From Acidithiobacillus sp. AMEEHan (GTDB taxonomy: Bacteria > Pseudomonadota > Gammaproteobacteria > Acidithiobacillales > Acidithiobacillaceae), in assembly GCF_030996345.1 (NCBI RefSeq), contig NZ_CP118747.1, forward strand, positions 357,501-421,500: a DNA stretch of 64,000 bases, written 5' to 3'. Positions 49,152 through 58,817 of this stretch are shown in pieces. Every line of letters starts with the position of its first letter. Position 1 is the stretch's first letter. The position numbers and the translations under genes were made by a program. The notes below the pieces were generated by a model that was not told where the DNA came from, ran no database searches, and was given only the letters and a program-made list of their open reading frames with translations.

Positions 49152-50369
49152 TCATGTGGGTAGCCTGAGATCCAGTTTACCGAGGATCAGGTAGGCCATG
49201 TTGATAAAGTTCTTGTGGGTACGGTAGCCACGGGCTTTTGCCTTGGCGGACTGGAGGAGGCTATTGAAGCCTTCCAGAATCCCGTTGGTGATCTGGCTCT
49301 CGAACCAGCGGAGCACACCATCCCAGTGATTCATGACGGTGTAGGCGACCTTGACCATTGGCGGTAATCCGCTGTCCTTGACGTTTTCCACCCAGGCCTT
49401 GAGCAGGGTGGCGCCCTGGTGGCGATTCTGGACGGTGAAGATTTCTTGGAAGGTCAGGCGAAGCTGATAAGCCTGTGCTGTCTTGAGGTTCTGGTTCTTG
49501 AGGATCTCCCGGAGCCTGGCGCTTTGCTTGGCGGAGAGCTTTCCCGGGTTCTTGAGCCAAAGCCAGCGGCTCTTTTTCAGGTCTGGTTGGGAGAGGGCTT
49601 CCCCCTTGCGTACGGCATCTACGGCCTCATTGACGAGCTTCATGAGGTGAAAGCGATCGAAGGTGACCTGGGCGTTGGGCAGGTGTTCTGCGGCCCCTTT
49701 TTGGAAGGCTGGCGAGAGGTCCATGCTGACCTCCGTAATGGCCTCGGCGCTGCCGCCATGGGCCTGCAGATCTTCGGCGAACTGCGCAAAAGTCTCGGCA
49801 TCCTTGCCGGGTGTGGCAAACAGCAGGCGCTTCGCCACGAGGTCCACAAACAGGGTGATGTAATCATGGCCGCGCCGGCTGCTCGTCTCATCGATACCGA
49901 CGGAATGGACCTCTGACATGTCCGCGGCCTCGCGGGCCTTGGCGACGTAATGATCGAGCACCCGCCAGAGTCGCTGGTCCGTCTCCCGCACTAGGCGGGA
50001 GACCGTCAACACGGGCATCTCCCGGACCATGGCCATGACTAGAGCCTCAAAGAGCAGCGTGAATCCCGAGCCTTCCCGCGCCCAAGGGACGGATACCAAA
50101 TGCACGCCGTGTTCCGGGCAATGGACCCGTGGTACGCGGGCATGGAGATAAGCCGCATGCTGGAAGAAGTCGAGGTGACGCCAGACCTTCTCCTGGGTGT
50201 CATAGACCGGGCAGTCCTGGCCGCAGACCGGACAGGGAAACTGACTACCCCTTGGGAAGTTCACATGCAGGTCCAGGCGCTTTTCCTCCACCGTGAACCG
50301 CACATCGTCCACCATCCACGGCGGAACCAACCCCAACGCCAGAGTGAACAGTTGATTACCTTGGTCCAT
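49152..50369 (-). mobile_element. ISL3-family insertion sequence transposase
   Basis: 405 aa from the ATG at 50369 (GAGG upstream; a TTG 36 bases earlier is possible). The N-terminal zinc-finger region has CPVCGQDCPVYD and HCPEHG. The DDE catalytic core is intact, with VGIDETSSRRGHDYITLFVD (first Asp), EVSMDLSPAFQKGAAEHLP (second Asp), FDRFHLMKLVNEAVD and NGILEGFNSLLQ (Glu). It resembles the ISAfe1 type known in Acidithiobacillus. Ends share GTGGGTA just outside the gene (left near 49155, right near 50418), but I cannot find longer terminal repeats or an 8-bp target duplication. Confidence 0.93.
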
Positions 50370-50415
50370 CCTTATCCTCAGCTCGCTGCCCTTCCCATAA
50401 AGCAATCATACCGCC

Positions 50416-51561
50416 TTACCCACTCAATGTGTCGAGGAGCCCAACAAACTGATTGGGTTGATTGCCATTCTGGCCAAAAGCATCACCTGGAGTGAAGTGA
50501 TAGACATGTACGTAGCTCAACTCTCCCTCCAGGAACCAGTGCTTGGTCTGGTAGATCGGCGTAAGGGTCAGACCCACGGCTCGACTCCCAGGACCGTAGC
50601 CGAGATCGTTTCCCGCCAAGGTAGTACTCTGTCCATTATAATATACGCTCGGAGTGTCGCTGTAGGCCATGTAATCCAAACGTGTGCTCAGCGAATACTG
50701 AGGAGTAAAAGCATAGTTGGCATCGATACTGGCACCGTACTGATCACCGTCGCCGGTAGGATTACCAAACTGTGGCCCATTGATCAGTTTTTGATATTGC
50801 AGATACGCAAACATATTGAGCTTGCTGCCACTATAGTTATATCCGAGCAGATAGAAATCGGAGTTGTCCAGAGGACCGGCATAGTCAGTTTGGCCGGCGT
50901 TACCACCACCCTGTATCGTTATAGAATTGGCAGAGTTCAAATTATAACTCAATTGGCCGACCACCCAGTTGAAGCGCTTGGAGTAATAGCCGTCCGTCCA
51001 GGCTACTGATGCCGAAAAAGGACCGGCACTGTAATTGGCTTGAATTCCGCGACTGATCGTCTGCTGCTGCCAACCATCCAAGCCAAACTGAATGTTGTAG
51101 GAGCTGGAGATGAGATCCGTGAGCGGGGTAATGCCGGTGATGGCCGGCAGTTTGCCAATTTGTATGTTGAAATCATTGCTCGGCGTGATTTGCAAATAGG
51201 CCAAAGGCAACGGTCCAAAAGTGCTACTGATAGTACTGCCTGTGGAACTGGCTGGCTGGCCAATACCATAAAAATTGTAAGCACCTGCTTCGACGTAGAA
51301 CTGTAGCAGACCGCTGGTTTTGGCCACGGAAACCAAACCATCGGTAACGTCGGCACTGAAATACTTTCCAGCGGGACCGGATTGATCGAAGCGATTACTC
51401 TGCGCGCGTCCGTTGACACTCAAGAGCCCGCCCACACTCAACTTACCGAGAGGGCCGGCGTCGACGTTGATGGTGGGCGGCGTGGCAGGTAAAACCGCCG
51501 CCCCCGCGGAGCCAGAAAACAAGCAAGTTACCAAAACAGCTATTTTGCGATGATGGGTCAT
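50416..51561 (-). CDS. Outer-membrane beta-barrel porin, 3' end truncated at the IS
   Basis: 381 aa. Signal peptide of about 20 residues (KIAVLVTCLFSGSAGA). The mature part has many amphipathic strands, Gly/Asn/Ser-rich turns, PLAYLQITPSNDFNIQIGKLPAITG and LDYMAYSDTPSVYYNGQ, as in porins of the BBP2-like group common in acidophilic sulfur oxidisers. The last codons (DTLSG, stop) are formed by the junction with the IS end; a barrel normally ends in an aromatic residue. Probably 6-10 residues are lost, including the sorting signal. The ATG at 51561 has AGGAG upstream. Confidence 0.8.
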   Translation of the reverse strand: MTHHRKIAVLVTCLFSGSAGAAVLPATPPTINVDAGPLGKLSVGGLLSVNGRAQSNRFDQSGPAGKYFSADVTDGLVSVAKTSGLLQFYVEAGAYNFYGIGQPASSTGSTISSTFGPLPLAYLQITPSNDFNIQIGKLPAITGITPLTDLISSSYNIQFGLDGWQQQTISRGIQANYSAGPFSASVAWTDGYYSKRFNWVVGQLSYNLNSANSITIQGGGNAGQTDYAGPLDNSDFYLLGYNYSGSKLNMFAYLQYQKLINGPQFGNPTGDGDQYGASIDANYAFTPQYSLSTRLDYMAYSDTPSVYYNGQSTTLAGNDLGYGPGSRAVGLTLTPIYQTKHWFLEGELSYVHVYHFTPGDAFGQNGNQPNQFVGLLDTLSG

Positions 51562-51665
51562 ATTATTTTCTCCTAATTTGTTAAACTTATTACACAACCG
51601 CGCGGCACTGACGCCAAGCGTAATCGCGCAAACCTGCGCTGCTACAATCTGGACGTTGCTCCGCA

Positions 51666-51695
51666 ATGTTAGCAATTGTTGTACCAAAAAGACAA
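51666..51695 (-). promoter_or_regulatory. Candidate promoter of the porin gene
   Basis: On the minus strand TTGTCT (51690-51695), 18 bases and TAACAT (51666-51671). It would give a leader of about 100 bases before the ATG at 51561. Confidence 0.4.
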
Positions 51696-51940
51696 ATTAC
51701 GTATCTCCCTGAGCTCTGTGCATCGGGACACCCAAAAAATCCATCACAACTGCATGATTTTAAAAAAATAAAACCGGATCTTTTGGAGAACATACGACCA
51801 GCGGTGGCGCCCAGCTCCCTCAAGCGGAATCCCTCCCTGCACAACTTTGGCGAATCAGGGTGCCAATTTTGCCCTACAGTGAGGCAGTTTTGCACCTTTT
51901 TGGACATGCGGAACGCCAGCAGGCGAGACCCTGCGCGCCC
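51696..51940. other. Intergenic stretch without a recognisable gene
   Basis: It lies between the porin promoter and the 3' end of the first CorA gene. It is more AT-rich than the genes around it. It contains only short open frames without protein-like sequence, and no clear hairpin terminator for the CorA run. The part before 51695 is the porin leader and promoter. Confidence 0.6.
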
Positions 51941-52855
51941 CTAGCGCAGCCGTAACCAACCGATGCGATAAAAAAGAAATGCCGTGCCGAGTTCTACAGC
52001 AAGCAGGCCGCTGACGATGGTAACAAAGGAATAGGGCCAATTGGGAATGGGGCCGAGATCGACATTCATGGCCACGGCGCCGGGGATGAATAGAGGGATG
52101 GTGGCGAGAATGATCACCGCCGCCATGAACTTGAAGATGTTGTTGACGTTGTTGTTGACCACATAAGTGTAGGCATTGAGCAGGCTGTTGATGGTTTCCT
52201 GCTCGGTATCGACCTGTTCCCGCGCCTGACGCAGCTCGATGCGGCTGTCTTCGTGGTATTCGAGAAATTCCGCGGAATCCCTCGGTAACCAGGGCCGCAA
52301 CTCCTCGAGGAGATGTTCGATCTGCAACAGGCCGAGGCTGAGGTCAAGCAAGCGATCATTGACTTCCAAGGCGGCATAAATGACGTGGATGGTCTGCGCC
52401 CGCCGCAGGTCTTTCTCTACCTTGACCACGTCCTGGCTCACGTCCCGAGACATGCGCACGTAACGTCGGGCGATTTCGTGCACGATCTGCAGGACCACTT
52501 CGTAGCGCTTGCGCGGCGCTGCGGGATCGAGGAGCGCATCCAGAAAACGCACTGGTTCGTTGCTGAGGGTAACGAGGTATCCCGGCACCAGGATCAAGGT
52601 CAGAGGCAGCAGATCGAAGGTGCTGGAATGCGGGCTATGGTGGTGCGGGACGGTAAACTGCAGCGCCAGAAAGCCCTGCTCGCGCACGAAGGGCCGCGCC
52701 GGCTTGTCTTCCAGACGGCGGCGCAGGAACGGCTCCGGGACTCCTAGATCCGCCGCCGCTTGGGCCAGTTCCTCGGCACTTGGGGCGAGGAGATGCAACC
52801 AGTCGCGAGCGCGCCCGTTGCCAGTGAGAAAGGCGCCTTCGATCCGTCTCAACAT
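51941..52855 (-). CDS. CorA-family transporter homologue, paralogue D (VAMN signature)
   Basis: 304 aa, last of four consecutive CorA-like genes. A soluble alpha/beta N-terminal domain is followed by long helices (about 120-235), then two membrane helices at the C-terminus: FKFMAAVIILATIPLFIPGA and the last 25 residues. The signature that should be YGMN between them reads VAMN (PGAVAMNVDLGPIPNWPYSF), so the Asn selectivity residue is kept but Gly is not. It starts 9 bases after paralogue C, with GAGG upstream. Confidence 0.88.
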   Translation of the reverse strand: MLRRIEGAFLTGNGRARDWLHLLAPSAEELAQAAADLGVPEPFLRRRLEDKPARPFVREQGFLALQFTVPHHHSPHSSTFDLLPLTLILVPGYLVTLSNEPVRFLDALLDPAAPRKRYEVVLQIVHEIARRYVRMSRDVSQDVVKVEKDLRRAQTIHVIYAALEVNDRLLDLSLGLLQIEHLLEELRPWLPRDSAEFLEYHEDSRIELRQAREQVDTEQETINSLLNAYTYVVNNNVNNIFKFMAAVIILATIPLFIPGAVAMNVDLGPIPNWPYSFVTIVSGLLAVELGTAFLFYRIGWLRLR

Positions 52856-52864
52856 GGGCCGGCC

Positions 52865-53812
52865 TCACATCTCGAAGAAACCATGTTTCCTCCCCCACCA
52901 GGCGATATACAGCGATGCCCCGAAGCCATAGGTCAGCAGAAAGTACCAGGTGAATTTCCAATGACCAAGGGGCAGATGGACTTCCATATGAAAGGGCATG
53001 ATCAAGGCGATGGGAATCATCAGCAGGGCCAGCCAGAGGGTCATGACCTTCATCACCGAGTGCGAGTTGTTCTGCACGATGCCGGTATAGCAGTTGGTGA
53101 CCGAGGTATAGCGCTCCCAGACGAGGCTGACGCCCTCTTCCACCCGCCGCAGTTCCGCCTGCAGCTCCTCGAGGGGGGCGACCAAGGCGCTTTCTTCCTC
53201 TGCCTCGCGCAGCCAAGCACGCAGGGTGTGACCCAGATCGCGTAGAGAGACGACGAGGTCCCCCATACTGCGGTTGAGCTTGACGATTTCCCGCAGCTCG
53301 CGGTTGGTCATGGCGTGGCGTAGCGCCGCACGCAAGGTCTGCAAACGGGCGACGATGCGCTGCGCCGCAAGGTCGTGGCTGTGGATACAAACCAGGATCA
53401 GGCGCAGGAGGGCCTGTTCCCGGGATTCGGCATTGCTCATCTCTTCGATTTCCCGTTGCACCGAGGCAAGACTCGCGGCGGGCGCCAGCACCCAAAGGCT
53501 AGCGGGGGCAACGATGACCGAAAGGGAGACCTCCAAGAGTCTCTCGATACCCGCATCCAAATCGCGTCGATCGTGTACATAAGGGAGGCGCAGGTGCCAG
53601 ACCTGTGATGCGAGGAGCTCCAGGCGCTGGGCAACATCCTCGTCCGGACGCTGCAGACGAAACCAGGACTCGGGCAAGCCGAGGGCCCGAGCGTAGCCGC
53701 TCCAGCCATCATCGGCATCGGCGCCGAGCAGGAAGGCACCCTCCACCGGGGCCGTGGCGGGGAGCTCGGCGGGATTCCGCCATACCGTCCACAGCCAGGG
53801 ATTCAGATCCAA
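52865..53812 (-). CDS. CorA-family homologue, paralogue C (GMN signature lost)
   Basis: 315 aa from TTG at 53812, chosen because GGAGG sits five bases upstream and the overlap with paralogue B is then 10 bases; the open frame reaches 53893. Coiled helices are followed by two C-terminal membrane helices. In place of YGMN it reads MPFHMEVHLPLGHW, with neither Gly nor Asn at the pore entrance, so Mg transport in the known way is unlikely. It may be a regulatory subunit in a mixed pentamer, or have another ion. Confidence 0.82.
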   Translation of the reverse strand: MDLNPWLWTVWRNPAELPATAPVEGAFLLGADADDGWSGYARALGLPESWFRLQRPDEDVAQRLELLASQVWHLRLPYVHDRRDLDAGIERLLEVSLSVIVAPASLWVLAPAASLASVQREIEEMSNAESREQALLRLILVCIHSHDLAAQRIVARLQTLRAALRHAMTNRELREIVKLNRSMGDLVVSLRDLGHTLRAWLREAEEESALVAPLEELQAELRRVEEGVSLVWERYTSVTNCYTGIVQNNSHSVMKVMTLWLALLMIPIALIMPFHMEVHLPLGHWKFTWYFLLTYGFGASLYIAWWGRKHGFFEM

Positions 53813-54738
53813 TGTCGCCTCCGAAACCACAGCACCGCCAGCAGAGAAAGCGAAAAACTGCCGCCCATTAGCGTGGGCCAAGCGTAATGCCAATTCTGCA
53901 GCGGCAAAGGCACGTTCATACCGTAGATGGTGGCAACGGTTGCAGGAATGGCGATGATCACCGTCCAGCCGGTAATGACTTTCAGGGTGTTGCTGATGTT
54001 GGTCTGCAACACGCCGCCATAGGCATCCATCATGTTGGTGACCGTCGAGGTGTAGATTTCTGTCATGTCCCGCGCCTGCTGGAGATCGACGAGGGCGTCG
54101 GCGAGGTCTTCGGAATCCTCTTCATCCTGGGTGATGATCGGCAGCCGCAGCAATTGCTGCAGGACGGCGATGTTGCCGCGCAGGGCGGAGGTAAAGCGGA
54201 TGAGGATCTTGCTCAGACTGAGCATACTGAAGAATTCGTCGTTACTCTGAGAATGGTGCAGGCGTTCTTCGGTGTGGACGATCTCTTCGTTGATCACCTT
54301 GAGGGCATCGAGGAAGGCGCTGGCCATGCGCTGGATCATCTCCACCGTCAACCAGCGCGGGTCGAGCTCGTCGACTTCTTTGGGTAGCTGCGCCTCGATA
54401 GCCCGCAGCAGGGGCAGTTCCTCGGAACTGACAGTAAGAATCTCCTCGCGGCCAAAGACGATACCCAGGGGCAGCACCGAGAAACTCGGGCGGCCGGAAT
54501 CCGGATCCGGGCGCGCCAGGGGAATCTTGAGGATGACCAGGATGTTGTTGGCCTCCTTTTCCAGACGCGGACGCTCGTCGAGGTCCTGCACGTCCTGAAA
54601 ATACTCCTCGTAGAGCTGAAAGCGCTGGGTCAGCTCGGCAACCTGCTGCGGGTCGGGAGAGGTCACGCTGGTCCAGTGATAGGTGCGTCGCCCCTCTCCG
54701 CGCAGGGCGATGACACGTGCTGCCCGCGAATTTTTCAT
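53803..54738 (-). CDS. corA: CorA-family magnesium/cobalt transporter, paralogue B (canonical YGMN)
   Basis: 311 aa. The only one of the four with the exact CorA motif, IYGMNVPLPLQNW, near residue 272, between the two C-terminal membrane helices. The N-terminal cytoplasmic funnel and stalk helix (VITGWTVIIAIPATVATIYG leads into the pore) look normal. The ATG at 54738 overlaps the stop of paralogue A by four bases (ATGA), with GAGG six bases upstream. Most likely a working Mg2+ channel in the inner membrane. Confidence 0.92.
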   Translation of the reverse strand: MKNSRAARVIALRGEGRRTYHWTSVTSPDPQQVAELTQRFQLYEEYFQDVQDLDERPRLEKEANNILVILKIPLARPDPDSGRPSFSVLPLGIVFGREEILTVSSEELPLLRAIEAQLPKEVDELDPRWLTVEMIQRMASAFLDALKVINEEIVHTEERLHHSQSNDEFFSMLSLSKILIRFTSALRGNIAVLQQLLRLPIITQDEEDSEDLADALVDLQQARDMTEIYTSTVTNMMDAYGGVLQTNISNTLKVITGWTVIIAIPATVATIYGMNVPLPLQNWHYAWPTLMGGSFSLSLLAVLWFRRRHWI

Positions 54739-55625
54739 AGCCAACCTCGCCGTTTGAAATGCACACTCATGAGCAGGGAAATCCCAAAGGCCACACCAAT
54801 CGCTACCCAGACCGTCCAGTGGCTGTGTTGTTCCAGCAGCGGCACATTAACGCCAAAAATCGTTGCCACTAGGCTTGGTACATAGAGTACCAGGGCCAGC
54901 ACGGTTAGCACCTTGAGCCCGTGGTTGATGTTGATCTGTACCATGCCGGCGTAGGCATCCATCATGTCGCTGGCGGTGTTGGCGCTGATCTCGGCGCGGT
55001 CGCGGGCGTGCTGCAGGTCGGCGATGGCGAGGTTGAGGGCAGAGCGGTTAGCCTCGTCCCAACCCACGGCGGCGCTGCGCGACACCTTGAAAATGGCGAC
55101 GATATTGCTGGCGAGGGTCACGTAGAAGCGCGTCAATGCCTTGCTGAGGGCTAGCAGGGCGTAGAAGTCCTCGGTGCGCTGGGTTTCGTCCAGGCGTGCT
55201 TCCACGACGAGAATTTCCTTACGCAAACGCTCGACGGTGCGTAGATAACTCGTTGCGAGTAGCTGCATCAGCCAAATCAAGGTAACGCGGGGGTCCTGAA
55301 ACTTGCGCGCATTCCATTCACGCAGAAAAGGCCACTCCACTTCGCTGAAGGTCCATAAGCGATCTTCCCCCCAGAGCAGGGCCAGGGGCCGCAGCACGCA
55401 TTCCGCGTCGACGCCTTCCTGCCGCCACGGAATCTGCATGACCAGGAGCAGGTACGATCCAACTCGCTCAAGGCGCGGGCTTTGGTCTTGCTCGAGAAGT
55501 TGGTCGAAGAGGTCATCGGGGAGATCGAGCTGCTGCAGCAGGGTCGCCAGCAACTCCGGCGATGGTACCGGGTGATGGAACCAGCGCTGTCTTACGCCGC
55601 TGCTCGTCAGAATCGTACTCGCCAT
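54735..55625 (-). CDS. CorA/ZntB-family transporter, paralogue A (FGVN signature)
   Basis: 296 aa, first gene of the run. Two C-terminal membrane helices with ATIFGVNVPLLEQHSHW between them. GVN in place of GMN is seen in ZntB-type proteins of the same superfamily, so zinc or another divalent ion is possible. Cytoplasmic domain about 1-230 with long stalk helices (SANTASDMMDAYAGMVQINI). The ATG at 55625 lies 78 bases after the photolyase stop, behind a candidate promoter. Confidence 0.9.
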   Translation of the reverse strand: MASTILTSSGVRQRWFHHPVPSPELLATLLQQLDLPDDLFDQLLEQDQSPRLERVGSYLLLVMQIPWRQEGVDAECVLRPLALLWGEDRLWTFSEVEWPFLREWNARKFQDPRVTLIWLMQLLATSYLRTVERLRKEILVVEARLDETQRTEDFYALLALSKALTRFYVTLASNIVAIFKVSRSAAVGWDEANRSALNLAIADLQHARDRAEISANTASDMMDAYAGMVQININHGLKVLTVLALVLYVPSLVATIFGVNVPLLEQHSHWTVWVAIGVAFGISLLMSVHFKRRGWL

Positions 55626-55653
55626 ACGTCGCCACCCTTGCCGATCCGGCTGG

Positions 55654-55683
55654 GTTATAGCACAGGCGCCGGCGACAGTGGAA
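55654..55683 (-). promoter_or_regulatory. Candidate promoter of the four-CorA run
   Basis: On the minus strand TTCCAC (55678-55683), 18 bases and TGC-TATAAC, an extended -10 (TATAAC at 55654-55659). It lies in the 78-base gap between the photolyase and the first CorA gene, so the array can be expressed apart from the photolyase. Confidence 0.45.
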
Positions 55684-55703
55684 GCCAGCGACGACGCCTT
55701 AGC

Positions 55704-57242
55704 TCACACGATGGTGTAGCGTTCCCGCAGATCCGCCGCCTGCGCACGGATAGCGGCCAGCTCGGCAGGGGATTTCCGCTCCAGGTTGCGCCATTGCAGA
55801 GCGGTACGCGGATGCTTGCTGAATGTCTCCTGGTGGCGTTGCAGGAAGTCCCAGTACAAGGTGGTGAAGGGGCAGGCGTCGGCGCCCGTCGCTTGCTCCG
55901 GCCGGTAGGGACAGCGCTGGCAATGTCCGCCCATGCGTTGCAGATACTGGCCGCTCGCCACATAAGGCTTAGAGGCGAGCATACCGCCATCGGCGTACTG
56001 TGACATCCCAAGCACATTGGGGAGTTCGACCCACTCTACGGCATCGACGTAGATCGCCAGGAACCACTCGTGGATGGCCTGGGGACGAACACCGAGAAGC
56101 AAGGCAAAAAGTCCAGTCACCATCAGACGCTCGATGTGGTGGGCGTAGCCGGTTTCCAGGGTGCGTTGCAGCACGTCGCGCAAACAGGCCATCTCGATCT
56201 CGCCAGTCCAGTACCACGCGGGCAAGGGCTGCTCCGCGCCCAGGGCGTTGCGCTCCAAATAATGCGGCATCTCGCGCCAGTAGATGCCGCGCACGTACTC
56301 CCGCCACCCCAAAATCTGGCGCACGAAGCCTTCGACGGCGGCCAGGGATGCCCGCCCGGCATCGAGTTCGGCGATGGCACCGTCGATGGCCCGCCGCGGA
56401 TCGAGCAAGCCCAGATTCATCGCTGCCGAAAGCCGCGAGTGATAGAGCCAAACCTCTCCCGGCCAGGTGGCGTCTTGAAAGTGTCCAAAACTCGGGAGGC
56501 GATGGCGCAGAAAATCGTTCAATGCCTCCTCCGCCTGGGCGGCGGTCACCGGCCAGTCGAAACGGTGGAGACTGCCGGGGTGCTCCGGAAATTCCCTTTC
56601 CACCATCGCCATCACCTCCTGGGTGATGGCGTCCGGCGGAAAACTGCAGGGCTCGGGAATCCAGCCCGGTCCGGCGCGGCCAAAACTGCGACGATTGTCG
56701 CTGTCGTAGTTCCAACGTCCACCCCGAGGTTCGTCACCCTGCATCAGGATGCCGCTGCGCTGGCGCAGAAAGCGGTACCAGTGCTCCATGCGGTACTGCC
56801 GCCGTCCTTGCGCCCAATCCGTAAAGACCGCGAGGGGGAAGAGAAAGCGATGATCTTCGCACTCCCGGTAGTCGATGCCGAGGCGGGTACAGAGGGCGCG
56901 GATCGCTTCCCGCAACGCCCAGGTTCCCGGTTGGGCGCAGCGCAGTTCCGTTGGACGCTGCCGTAACAGGATCTGCTCCAAGCGCTCCACCAAGCTCTCG
57001 CCGCAACTTTCCGGGAGGGTTACGTAGAGGACCGGCAAACCCCGCTCCCGCAGCGCCGCGGCAAAATGTCGCATAGCCGAGAGGAAAAGTACGATCCGCG
57101 CCTTGTGGGACCAAACCTGCTCCGCTTCGCTGCGGGCCTCGATGAAAACGCAAAGATCGGAGGCGGGGTCAAGCTCGGACAAGGCGGCGGAGTGGGGATC
57201 AAGGTGATCGCCGAGAAGCAAAACCAGTTTTGCGGCGTTCAT
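55704..57242 (-). CDS. Iron-sulfur bacterial cryptochrome/(6-4) photolyase family protein (FeS-BCP)
   Basis: 512 aa. N-terminal Rossmann antenna domain (LVLLLGDHLDPHSAAL), then the FAD-binding helical domain with GPGWIPEPCSFPPD, QILGWREYVRGIYWREMP and MSQYADGGMLASKPYVASGQYLQRMG. Cysteines 353, 441, 444 and 457 have the spacing of the [4Fe-4S] ligands of this class (88, 3 and 13 apart). Known members repair (6-4) lesions using light. The ATG at 57242 overlaps the DUF2256 stop (ATGA). A second, different photolyase lies at 63186. Confidence 0.93.
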   Translation of the reverse strand: MNAAKLVLLLGDHLDPHSAALSELDPASDLCVFIEARSEAEQVWSHKARIVLFLSAMRHFAAALRERGLPVLYVTLPESCGESLVERLEQILLRQRPTELRCAQPGTWALREAIRALCTRLGIDYRECEDHRFLFPLAVFTDWAQGRRQYRMEHWYRFLRQRSGILMQGDEPRGGRWNYDSDNRRSFGRAGPGWIPEPCSFPPDAITQEVMAMVEREFPEHPGSLHRFDWPVTAAQAEEALNDFLRHRLPSFGHFQDATWPGEVWLYHSRLSAAMNLGLLDPRRAIDGAIAELDAGRASLAAVEGFVRQILGWREYVRGIYWREMPHYLERNALGAEQPLPAWYWTGEIEMACLRDVLQRTLETGYAHHIERLMVTGLFALLLGVRPQAIHEWFLAIYVDAVEWVELPNVLGMSQYADGGMLASKPYVASGQYLQRMGGHCQRCPYRPEQATGADACPFTTLYWDFLQRHQETFSKHPRTALQWRNLERKSPAELAAIRAQAADLRERYTIV

Positions 57243-57385
57243 GTGTTGTTGATGCTTTGTTTTTTGGCGCGGCAGGCGGCAGAGCAATACTTCACCGCCT
57301 CCCAGTCCTTGCGCCAGCGTTTTCGCCAGGAAAATGGGCGGTGACAGACGGGACAGATCTTCTGGGGTAGCTGCGTTTTTTTCAT
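57239..57385 (-). CDS. DUF2256 small zinc-ribbon-like protein
   Basis: 48 aa, basic. Two Cys pairs, ICPVCHRPFSWRKRW and YCSAACRAKK, form a probable zinc knuckle. DUF2256 genes commonly neighbour FeS photolyases. The ATG at 57385 is the family start; the stop overlaps the photolyase start by four bases, so the two are translationally coupled. Function unknown. Confidence 0.9.
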   Translation of the reverse strand: MKKTQLPQKICPVCHRPFSWRKRWRKDWEAVKYCSAACRAKKQSINNT

Positions 57386-57394
57386 CGAGCACTC

Positions 57395-57445
57395 TTGATC
57401 TGAATTTGTACTATACATAATATGGACGTGAAAGCCGATGCGCAA
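57395..57445. promoter_or_regulatory. Back-to-back promoters shared by the photolyase unit and the oxidase-Cfa operon
   Basis: Plus strand: TTGATC (57395-57400), 17 bases, TAATAT (57418-57423). Minus strand: TTGCGC (57440-57445), 17 bases, TATTAT (57417-57422). The two -10 boxes lie on top of each other, so the promoters exclude one another unless co-activated. The dyad TGTA-CTA-TACA (57407-57417) sits in the plus-strand spacer. MerR-type light regulators (LitR/CarH) are said to favour TGTA/TACA half-sites; no such gene is in the window. Confidence 0.6.
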
Positions 57446-57509
57446 GGGAATTGCATCCGCACCCCCATTCCTTGCGTAAGAGAATTAGACTTTGCCCCCG
57501 GAGGCGCCG

Positions 57510-58817
57510 ATGCGCGTTGCAGTGATTGGAAGTGGAATTGCCGGCCTGGCTTCGGCCTGGCTTCTACGCAAACATCATCGAGTCAGCCTCTTCGAGGCCG
57601 ATTCCCGTTGCGGTGGACACACCCATACCGTGGAAATCGAGCATGAGGGCATAACTGCCCCCGTCGATACCGGCTTTCTGGTCTGCAATGATTGGACCTA
57701 TCCACATCTGCTGGGTCTATTTGCCGAACTGCAGGTGGAGCTGGTGGCCAGCCAGATGACGTTCAGTGTGCGCCTCTCCGATCCTGAGCTGGAATGGAGC
57801 GGCACGGATCTGAACGGCCTCTTTGCCCAGCGTCGCAATCTGCTGCGTCCGGCCTTCTACGGCATGCTGCGCGACATTCTGCGCTTCAATCGCGACGCCA
57901 AGGCGTGGCTGCGCGCGGAAGCGTCTGACATCTCCCTGGGGGAGTTTCTTGTTCGCGGACGCTATGGCGAGTGGCTGCAGGAGGCCTACCTGTTGCCCAT
58001 GGCGGCGGCGATCTGGTCCTGCCCCGTGGCGCAGATGCGCGCCTACCCAGCGCGCTCCTTTTTGCGCTTCTACGAGAATCACGGGCTGCTGAATATCTTC
58101 CGTCGCCCCCAGTGGCTCACGGTAAAAGGCGGGGGGCGGGAGTATGTGCAACGGATCCTCGCGCAACTGGATGACCTGCGCAGCGGGACACCGGTGTTGC
58201 GCCTCGAACCCTTAGGTGCAGGCATTCGTGTACACAGTGCGGCCGGGGTGGAAGATTTCGACGCTGTAGTCAGTGCGGTGCACAGCGACCAGCTCCTCCC
58301 CCTCCTCGGGGAACATTGGCCCGAGCATCATGCGCCCTTGGCCGCCATCCGCTACCAACCCAACCGCGCCGTACTGCATCGCGATGCGAGCTTTCTGCCG
58401 CAGCGGCGGCAGGCCTGGTCGGCGTGGAATTTTCACCGCGAAGTTGGGAGCAGCGTCGAGCGGCCGGTGGCGGTCAGCTATCTGATCAACAAATTGCAGC
58501 CCCTGCCTTTCCGCGATCCCATCATCGTCACCCTGAATCCCGAACGGGAACCCGACCCTGCCCTCGTCTGGCGGGAGATCAATTACGCCCATCCGGTCTT
58601 CGACGGCCCTGCCGTGGCGGCCCAAGCCAGCCTGCGCGCGCTGCAAGGGGTGCAGGGTTTGTATCTGGCCGGAGCATGGCTGGGCTACGGTTTTCACGAG
58701 GACGGCATGCGCAGTGCCGTCGAGGTCGCACGCGCGCTCGGGGTACGCATCCCCTGGGAAGAGAAGGCAGCCACCCAGAGCCGCCCGGAAGCAGTGTTAT
58801 GCCCCAACGCAGCATGA
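57510..58817 (+). CDS. FAD-dependent amine-oxidase-like flavoprotein (COG2907 type)
   Basis: 435 aa. N-terminal dinucleotide site VAVIGSGIAGLASAWLLRK, then DSRCGGHTHTVEIEH and DTGFLVCNDWTYPHLL typical of the group; the C-terminal FAD motif is LYLAGAWLGYGFHEDGMRSA. Homologues sit beside cfa and DUF1365 genes, and in the furan-fatty-acid pathway of alphaproteobacteria a flavoprotein desaturase has a comparable position. The ATG at 57510 has GGAGG upstream. First gene of the plus-strand operon. Confidence 0.9.
   Translation: MRVAVIGSGIAGLASAWLLRKHHRVSLFEADSRCGGHTHTVEIEHEGITAPVDTGFLVCNDWTYPHLLGLFAELQVELVASQMTFSVRLSDPELEWSGTDLNGLFAQRRNLLRPAFYGMLRDILRFNRDAKAWLRAEASDISLGEFLVRGRYGEWLQEAYLLPMAAAIWSCPVAQMRAYPARSFLRFYENHGLLNIFRRPQWLTVKGGGREYVQRILAQLDDLRSGTPVLRLEPLGAGIRVHSAAGVEDFDAVVSAVHSDQLLPLLGEHWPEHHAPLAAIRYQPNRAVLHRDASFLPQRRQAWSAWNFHREVGSSVERPVAVSYLINKLQPLPFRDPIIVTLNPEREPDPALVWREINYAHPVFDGPAVAAQASLRALQGVQGLYLAGAWLGYGFHEDGMRSAVEVARALGVRIPWEEKAATQSRPEAVLCPNAA

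Follow-up and report, generated by a model that had tools for sequence, protein, structure and literature searches.

Introduction

The textbook example of a homopentameric Mg2+ channel is CorA, whose GxN motif is treated as the defining selectivity filter; GVN is the filter motif of ZntB. In the text of Stetsenko and Guskov (2020; PMC6972854), CorAs are termed "homo- or hetero-pentamers," CorA123 of C. metallidurans, which imports Co2+, is called a "heterotrimer" with reference to Herzberg (2016), and three studied CorA/ZntB proteins are described as promiscuous among divalents; in the searched portion of an article that deals with the seven-importer mutant of C. metallidurans (PMC5069749), no word starts with hetero, pentamer or oligomer. 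For Acidithiobacillus, a four-gene cor cluster conserved in the genus, and a five-gene one in At. caldus, have been reported (Tran et al., 2017; PMC5468388). The relevant section of that text counts "four predicted CorA transport systems" and proposes removal of Mn2+, and a figure legend reads "corA involved in zinc resistance." Here, an array of four CorA-family genes is analyzed that lies in 64,000 nucleotides of the genome of Acidithiobacillus sp. AMEEHan (contig NZ_CP118747.1, positions 357,501 to 421,500 of the forward strand), a stretch hereafter called the window. A preliminary description of the window held that no four-paralogue CorA operon of this kind had been described, which the cluster of Tran et al. 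contradicts. The gene cluster is thus already known; its fixed split into two subunits that carry GxN and two that do not appears to be unreported, as no account of fixed filter divergence in the cor cluster was found in the literature searched, supplementary files aside.

The array and its proteins

Four complete CorA-family open reading frames (ORFs) stand in a head-to-tail row on the minus strand at 51941-55625 of the window, in the transcript order A (FGVN), B (YGMN), C (FHME) and D (VAMN). Gene A (54735..55625) encodes 296 amino acids and matches the Pfam CorA family at 122.5 bits, with the codons of its FGVN filter at 54846..54857; gene B (53803..54738) encodes 311 amino acids from the ATG at 54738, matches at 184.4 bits and has its YGMN filter at 53914..53925. 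FHME (52982..52993) replaces GxN in gene C (52865..53812; 315 amino acids from the TTG at 53812; 57.7 bits), and VAMN (52064..52075) replaces it in gene D (51941..52855; 304 amino acids from the ATG at 52855; 96.0 bits). The start codons of B, C and D are those that we judged best; 53893, the start of gene C in the ORF listing, was considered too early, and the TTG at 53812, which has GGAGG just upstream, is preferred.

Genes A and B overlap by four bases, in an ATGA that combines the start of B with the stop of A, B and C overlap by 10 bases, and nine bases separate the stop of C from the start of D. This layout, together with the four genes, their strand and their positions, agrees with the preliminary description and is confirmed by the ORFs and the Pfam matches. 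Intergenic spacing ranges from -10 to +30 bases across the 20 array loci examined. The arrangement is operon-like, and the four genes are probably co-transcribed. Within the window the four proteins are 23-34% identical to one another, and the host genome (2.63 Mb in 6 contigs) contains a fifth, stand-alone CorA gene far from the array (G000:C1:970508; genomes and loci are denoted here by G and L numbers, G000 being the genome of the window).

The Pfam CorA gathering cut-off (PF01544, 27 bits) is passed by A, B, C and D alike, the match of gene C covering its C-terminal 211 amino acids only. None of the four reaches the cut-off of the NCBIfam CorA equivalog (TIGR00383, 200.75 bits), the scores being 86 bits for A, 112 for B, 30 for C and 69 for D. 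Sequence kinship to CorA in the Protein Data Bank (PDB) is found for A, B and D, and no CorA match by sequence is found there for gene C. The AlphaFold2 single-chain model of C, based on a 14-row alignment, has a mean predicted local distance difference test score (pLDDT) of 77 and a predicted template-modeling score of 0.68. In a Foldseek search it comes closest to CorA chains, which match it from end to end (E 3e-9, template-modeling score about 0.55), and comparison with T. maritima CorA (8tmb) gives a Z of 18.9 and a root-mean-square deviation (rmsd) of 6.8 over 288 aligned residues. This match over 288 residues rules out that C is an unrelated membrane protein. The single-chain model of D has a pLDDT of 82, falling to about 55 at the end of the first transmembrane helix (TM1) and in the loop, and aligns with M. 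jannaschii CorA (4ev6) over 286 residues (Z 21.2, rmsd 8.7). A cytoplasmic α/β domain, a long stalk helix and two C-terminal transmembrane helices are accordingly predicted by the models of C and D, and kinship of sequence suggests the same CorA architecture for A and B.

Because of its GVN, gene A had been linked to ZntB in the preliminary description. The motif does not reflect kinship: A scores 18.8 bits against the cut-off of 292 of the ZntB model NF007092, and it sits inside the clade formed by the array genes. For B, C and D, no ZntB match is found at E up to 0.001.

Occurrence in the Acidithiobacillaceae

A search with a profile of gene C finds the gene in 22 of the 29 genomes of the family, and a PF01544 search of 40 relatives shows the same gene run in most family genomes. 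The array is complete in 20 of the 22 and is cut by a contig end in G583 and in G006, which belongs to the same genus as the genome of the window. Gene order and strand are constant in all arrays, wherever the contig shows them, and no array gene is broken inside a contig. Two genomes of one genus (g4), which is presumably that of At. caldus, have five genes in the order A-B'-E-C-D. Scattered single copies and a duplication produced by misassembly, either of which, according to the preliminary description, would have deprived the array of meaning, are not what the family shows: assembly error or chance is ruled out by the presence of the array in 21 other assemblies, including the two in which a contig end cuts it.

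Seven genomes have no gene C (G001, G004, G005, G009, G012, G584 and G585). PF01544 has no match in five of these and one match each in G001 and G585. The match in G001 is a stand-alone CorA on the tree; in G585, the C profile, which picks up array gene B at about 58-84 bits, finds nothing. No array genes were found in these seven family genomes; the genomes seen either have the entire array or lack it.

When named genomes were scanned for gene C, 16 loci were obtained, of which 15 are titled Acidithiobacillus or Igneacidithiobacillus and one (L050) comes from an unplaced proteobacterial metagenome-assembled genome, on a contig that carries the array with gene A truncated by the contig end. 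In the class, of which 274 genomes were searched, CorA matches number at most four in any other genome and none shows four in a row; G093 and G256 have four matches each, spread over at least three and at least two contigs, respectively. At least two adjacent pairs of CorA genes occur in other families of the class (G157:C1:1596800-1598697 and G040:C10:374512-376370), so that tandem duplication of CorA as such is not unique to the Acidithiobacillaceae.

Filter and pore residues

At its end, TM1 carries the GxN signature in A and B but not in C (0/22) or D (0/22). The filter is GVN in all 21 A genes and GMN in 19 of 21 B genes, AMN being found in the remaining two, which belong to the five-gene genomes; the extra gene E of those genomes has GMN in both cases. 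Gene C has the motif [FW]-H-M-x, in which H-M is kept in 22/22 and the last residue is M in 15, E in four and N in three; the form FHME is thus limited to a few strains, and the fixed part is H-M. Gene D has [AS]MN in 22/22. The four distinct pore signatures noticed in the window are therefore kept by position across 22 arrays, and C and D agree with the suggestion that two members of the set are altered. All 41 CorAs outside the array that were compared, which are best matches rather than a random draw (two self rows discounted), have GxN (40 GMN, one GIN).

A similar division is seen at the equivalent of Asp277 of T. maritima CorA, which is Asp in A (21/21) and B (21/21), Asn in C (21/22), and Glu (15), Asn (5) or Asp (2) in D, that is, Glu or Asn in 20 of 22. 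At the equivalents of residues 288, 291, 294, 298, 302, 305 and 309, a set which we take to be pore-facing from T. maritima CorA, gene C has His, Met, Met, Leu, Met, Ile and Met in 22/22. The six positions from 291 to 309 are hence hydrophobic in every C protein, which makes a conducting homopentamer of C unlikely.

Origin and selection

In trees that carried long-branch warnings, genes A to E form one clade with respect to 41 outside CorAs (99 in the Shimodaira-Hasegawa-like approximate likelihood-ratio test) and with respect to the 33 that remain after removal of long branches (support 100/99). In the latter tree, single-gene clades are recovered for C (100/100), D (100/100) and A (97/99). 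The B group is monophyletic in 10% or 82% of 200 bootstrap trees, depending on which of two trees is taken. Where there are five genes, the second has MAMN and the third YGMN, and either may be the true B.

For the most part, profile searches also connect the array genes with one another. In its own genome the C profile picks up B at 63, D at 41 and A at 31 bits and no further gene, and 298 other genomes from the phylum gave it no match. The B profile scores A at 185 and D at 100 bits, with nothing above 53 outside its own genome, and the D profile scores B at 94, A at 81, C at 40 and the stand-alone CorA of the same genome at 38, with nothing above 36 in other genomes. Judged from these sequence relationships, A to D are most likely old tandem duplicates that arose in place and predate the divergence of the three genera in which they occur. 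The ratio of nonsynonymous to synonymous substitution rates (dN/dS) of A to D is 0.02-0.18 across 13 chosen genome pairs, dS being saturated in the wider ones, and indicates purifying selection on each gene; the value for C is the highest of the four in 10 of the 13 pairs and reaches 0.18.

Neighboring genes and other metal transporters

The flanks of the array were compared at seven loci, the window and six others. In the window they consist of a photolyase-related gene and a porin; elsewhere, DabA and HrcA (L016), HrcA (L018), GidA (L021 and L028) and, at L019, a GlcF-like gene (our name for a CCG/Fer4 protein) with a methyltransferase gene are found. In the five-gene genus, convergent Nramp and MgtC genes lie just downstream of the array (L022:10776-12996; L020). 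The neighborhood was considered as a clue to function and set aside, because the flanks vary between genera and are only partly common within a genus; consequently, the constant partners of each array gene are its siblings in the array. In the window, an ISL3-family transposase (49152-50405) downstream of the array stands between an amino-acid permease and a BBP2 porin gene. L016 and L018, from the same genus, have HrcA downstream instead of this ISL3/porin flank, which therefore varies within the genus. The MgtC match at L020 is split into two pieces, and Nramp and MgtC are paired in G007 and G024 as well, at a site not adjoining the array.

A promoter scan of 51600-56000 detected no sigma-70-like site. 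A terminator scan of the same region detected five terminator-like sites where 3.0 were expected; each lies within gene coordinates, and two (53878 and 54481) are on the strand of the array.

MgtE is absent from 19/19 genomes tested, MgtA exceeds its cut-off in 4/19 (G019, G020, G022 and G585), and MgtC is found in 4/18. The array is the only system of the CorA, MgtE or MgtA type found in G010, G011, G013 and G024 (the last 90% complete), and this favors a role in uptake for one or more of the array proteins. Those four genomes also have Nramp and P-type ATPases below the MgtA cut-off. In both five-gene genomes the sole Nramp gene found is the one next to the array. The genome of the window has two Nramp matches of identical score and extent on different contigs (G000:C1:2411537 and G000:C6:10062), which represent either a recent duplicate or a redundant contig.

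Function of the array

The array may be regarded as one old operon of CorA-type channel subunits, the product of which would admit Mg2+ to the cells of these acidophiles, probably along with further divalent metals. With both GxN and the Asp ring, A (GVN) and B (GMN) would be the filter-competent, conducting subunits. C has no GxN glycine, no cytoplasmic Asp ring and usually no asparagine, and the His at the mouth of its pore never varies; D, with A/S-M-N, departs from GxN and mostly from the Asp ring. These two would modify the channel. Because a homopentamer of C would have a hydrophobic pore with a ring of His at its mouth and would be a poor cation channel, C is expected in mixed pentamers. 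C, and less surely D, may thus join A and B and throttle or tune the entry of ions, and the His of C, if protonated and hence positive in the acidic periplasm, could lower cation entry. A single uptake channel for divalent cations, chiefly Mg2+, with A and B as the conducting and C and D as the modifying subunits of probable mixed pentamers, is the explanation that we favor, with a confidence somewhat short of even. A more specific form, in which a dedicated heteropentamer would combine two filter-bearing and two non-GxN subunits and the His of C would gate the mouth, on the side of the acid, metal-rich outside, in response to pH or metal, is a possibility, though less likely than not.

Several observations count against this explanation. 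The pore-facing columns are no more conserved than the rest of the segment (33/56 vs. 46/96, p 0.24), and the motif of C ends in Asn in 3/22, so that loss of the Asn is not universal. The B profile gives C 50 bits and does not set it above outside CorAs, which reach 53. Some absences of the array may be gaps, since four of the seven array-less genomes are only 61-85% complete (the others being G004 at 91%, G009 at 99% and G585 at 96%). No Rfam match, riboswitches included, is found on 50300-57600 at E up to 1, and one terminator-like site (53878-53863) lies on the array strand shortly before the start of C, in a scan in which the number of sites is near chance. Nramp is present in 18/18 genomes tested, among them G004 and G009, which have no match to CorA, to MgtE or, above the cut-off, to MgtA. 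That these two genomes do without all three families, with Nramp in every genome tested, means that the array need not be the importer of Mg2+. Co-retention and coupling of the genes, finally, would also fit four separate homopentamers that are needed together.

Such separate homopentameric channels, co-expressed from one operon and differing in their preferences among divalents (e.g., Mg2+, Zn2+, Mn2+ and Co2+), are the serious rival to a mixed channel and a distinct possibility. The filters and pore linings differ from gene to gene, each being largely fixed across genera, and each gene is under purifying selection. The count of four transport systems by Tran et al. (2017; PMC5468388) and the promiscuity described for the three studied CorA/ZntB proteins (PMC6972854) would also suit independent channels. 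Gene C, however, would make a poor one, with no GxN, no equivalent of Asp277 (21/22) and six hydrophobic pore positions, and retention of all genes or none is unexpected if the channels are independent.

Acidophiles have an inside-positive potential, the habitat of the genus is acid and rich in metals, and a CorA pore could leak divalents outward. Characterized CorAs are, however, importers, the position of the array as sole system of its type in four genomes favors uptake, and the Nramp and MgtC neighbors in two five-gene genomes point, weakly, to supply. A metal-resistance cluster for efflux of Mn2+, Co2+ or Zn2+, as proposed by Tran et al. (2017; PMC5468388), who infer removal of Mn2+ in the text and zinc resistance in the figure legend, is therefore considered improbable; the section concerned gives no functional test. 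That C and D are functionless, decaying duplicates is largely refuted and very improbable: the dN/dS of C and its greatest divergence from the family would suit decay, but the values for A to D are far below 1 in 13/13 pairs, no array gene is broken inside a contig in 22 arrays, and H-M and [AS]MN are fixed in 22/22.

Most members of the family thus keep four old paralogues in one array, two of which lie outside the GxN rule and are yet under selection. As a natural system, the array lends itself to the questions whether mixed pentamers of CorA form in bacteria and what the role of a non-GxN subunit may be, and it bears on how acidophiles that face very high metal concentrations outside take in Mg2+.

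Comparison with known systems

The four- and five-gene counts of the cor cluster (Tran et al., 2017; PMC5468388) match those of the arrays described here, which presumably correspond to that cluster gene by gene. The relevant part of that text is silent on divergent filters, on the loss of GxN, on a shared origin of the genes and on mixed channels. C. metallidurans, with CorA1 to CorA3, resembles the genomes that carry the array in having several CorAs in one bacterium, but these are described as very different, with an identity below 7%, and the passage concerned describes no single tight operon (PMC6972854). ZntB shares a GVN-type filter with gene A, which nevertheless groups with its array siblings and scores 18.8 bits against the ZntB cut-off of 292.

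The CorA Mg2+/Co2+ channels of T. maritima and M. jannaschii share their fold with the models of C and D from end to end and are akin in sequence to A, B and D. They are homopentamers with GMN, whereas the array comprises four paralogues with GVN, GMN, HMx and [AS]MN. The proposed arrangement is approached by yeast Mrs2 and Lpe10, a CorA-type channel with a paralogous partner that reportedly modulates it (Sponder, 2010, as cited in PMC9276622). The yeast pair is mitochondrial and consists of two genes that are not in an operon, whereas the putative modulators of the array, C and D, are encoded in one operon-like row with A and B.

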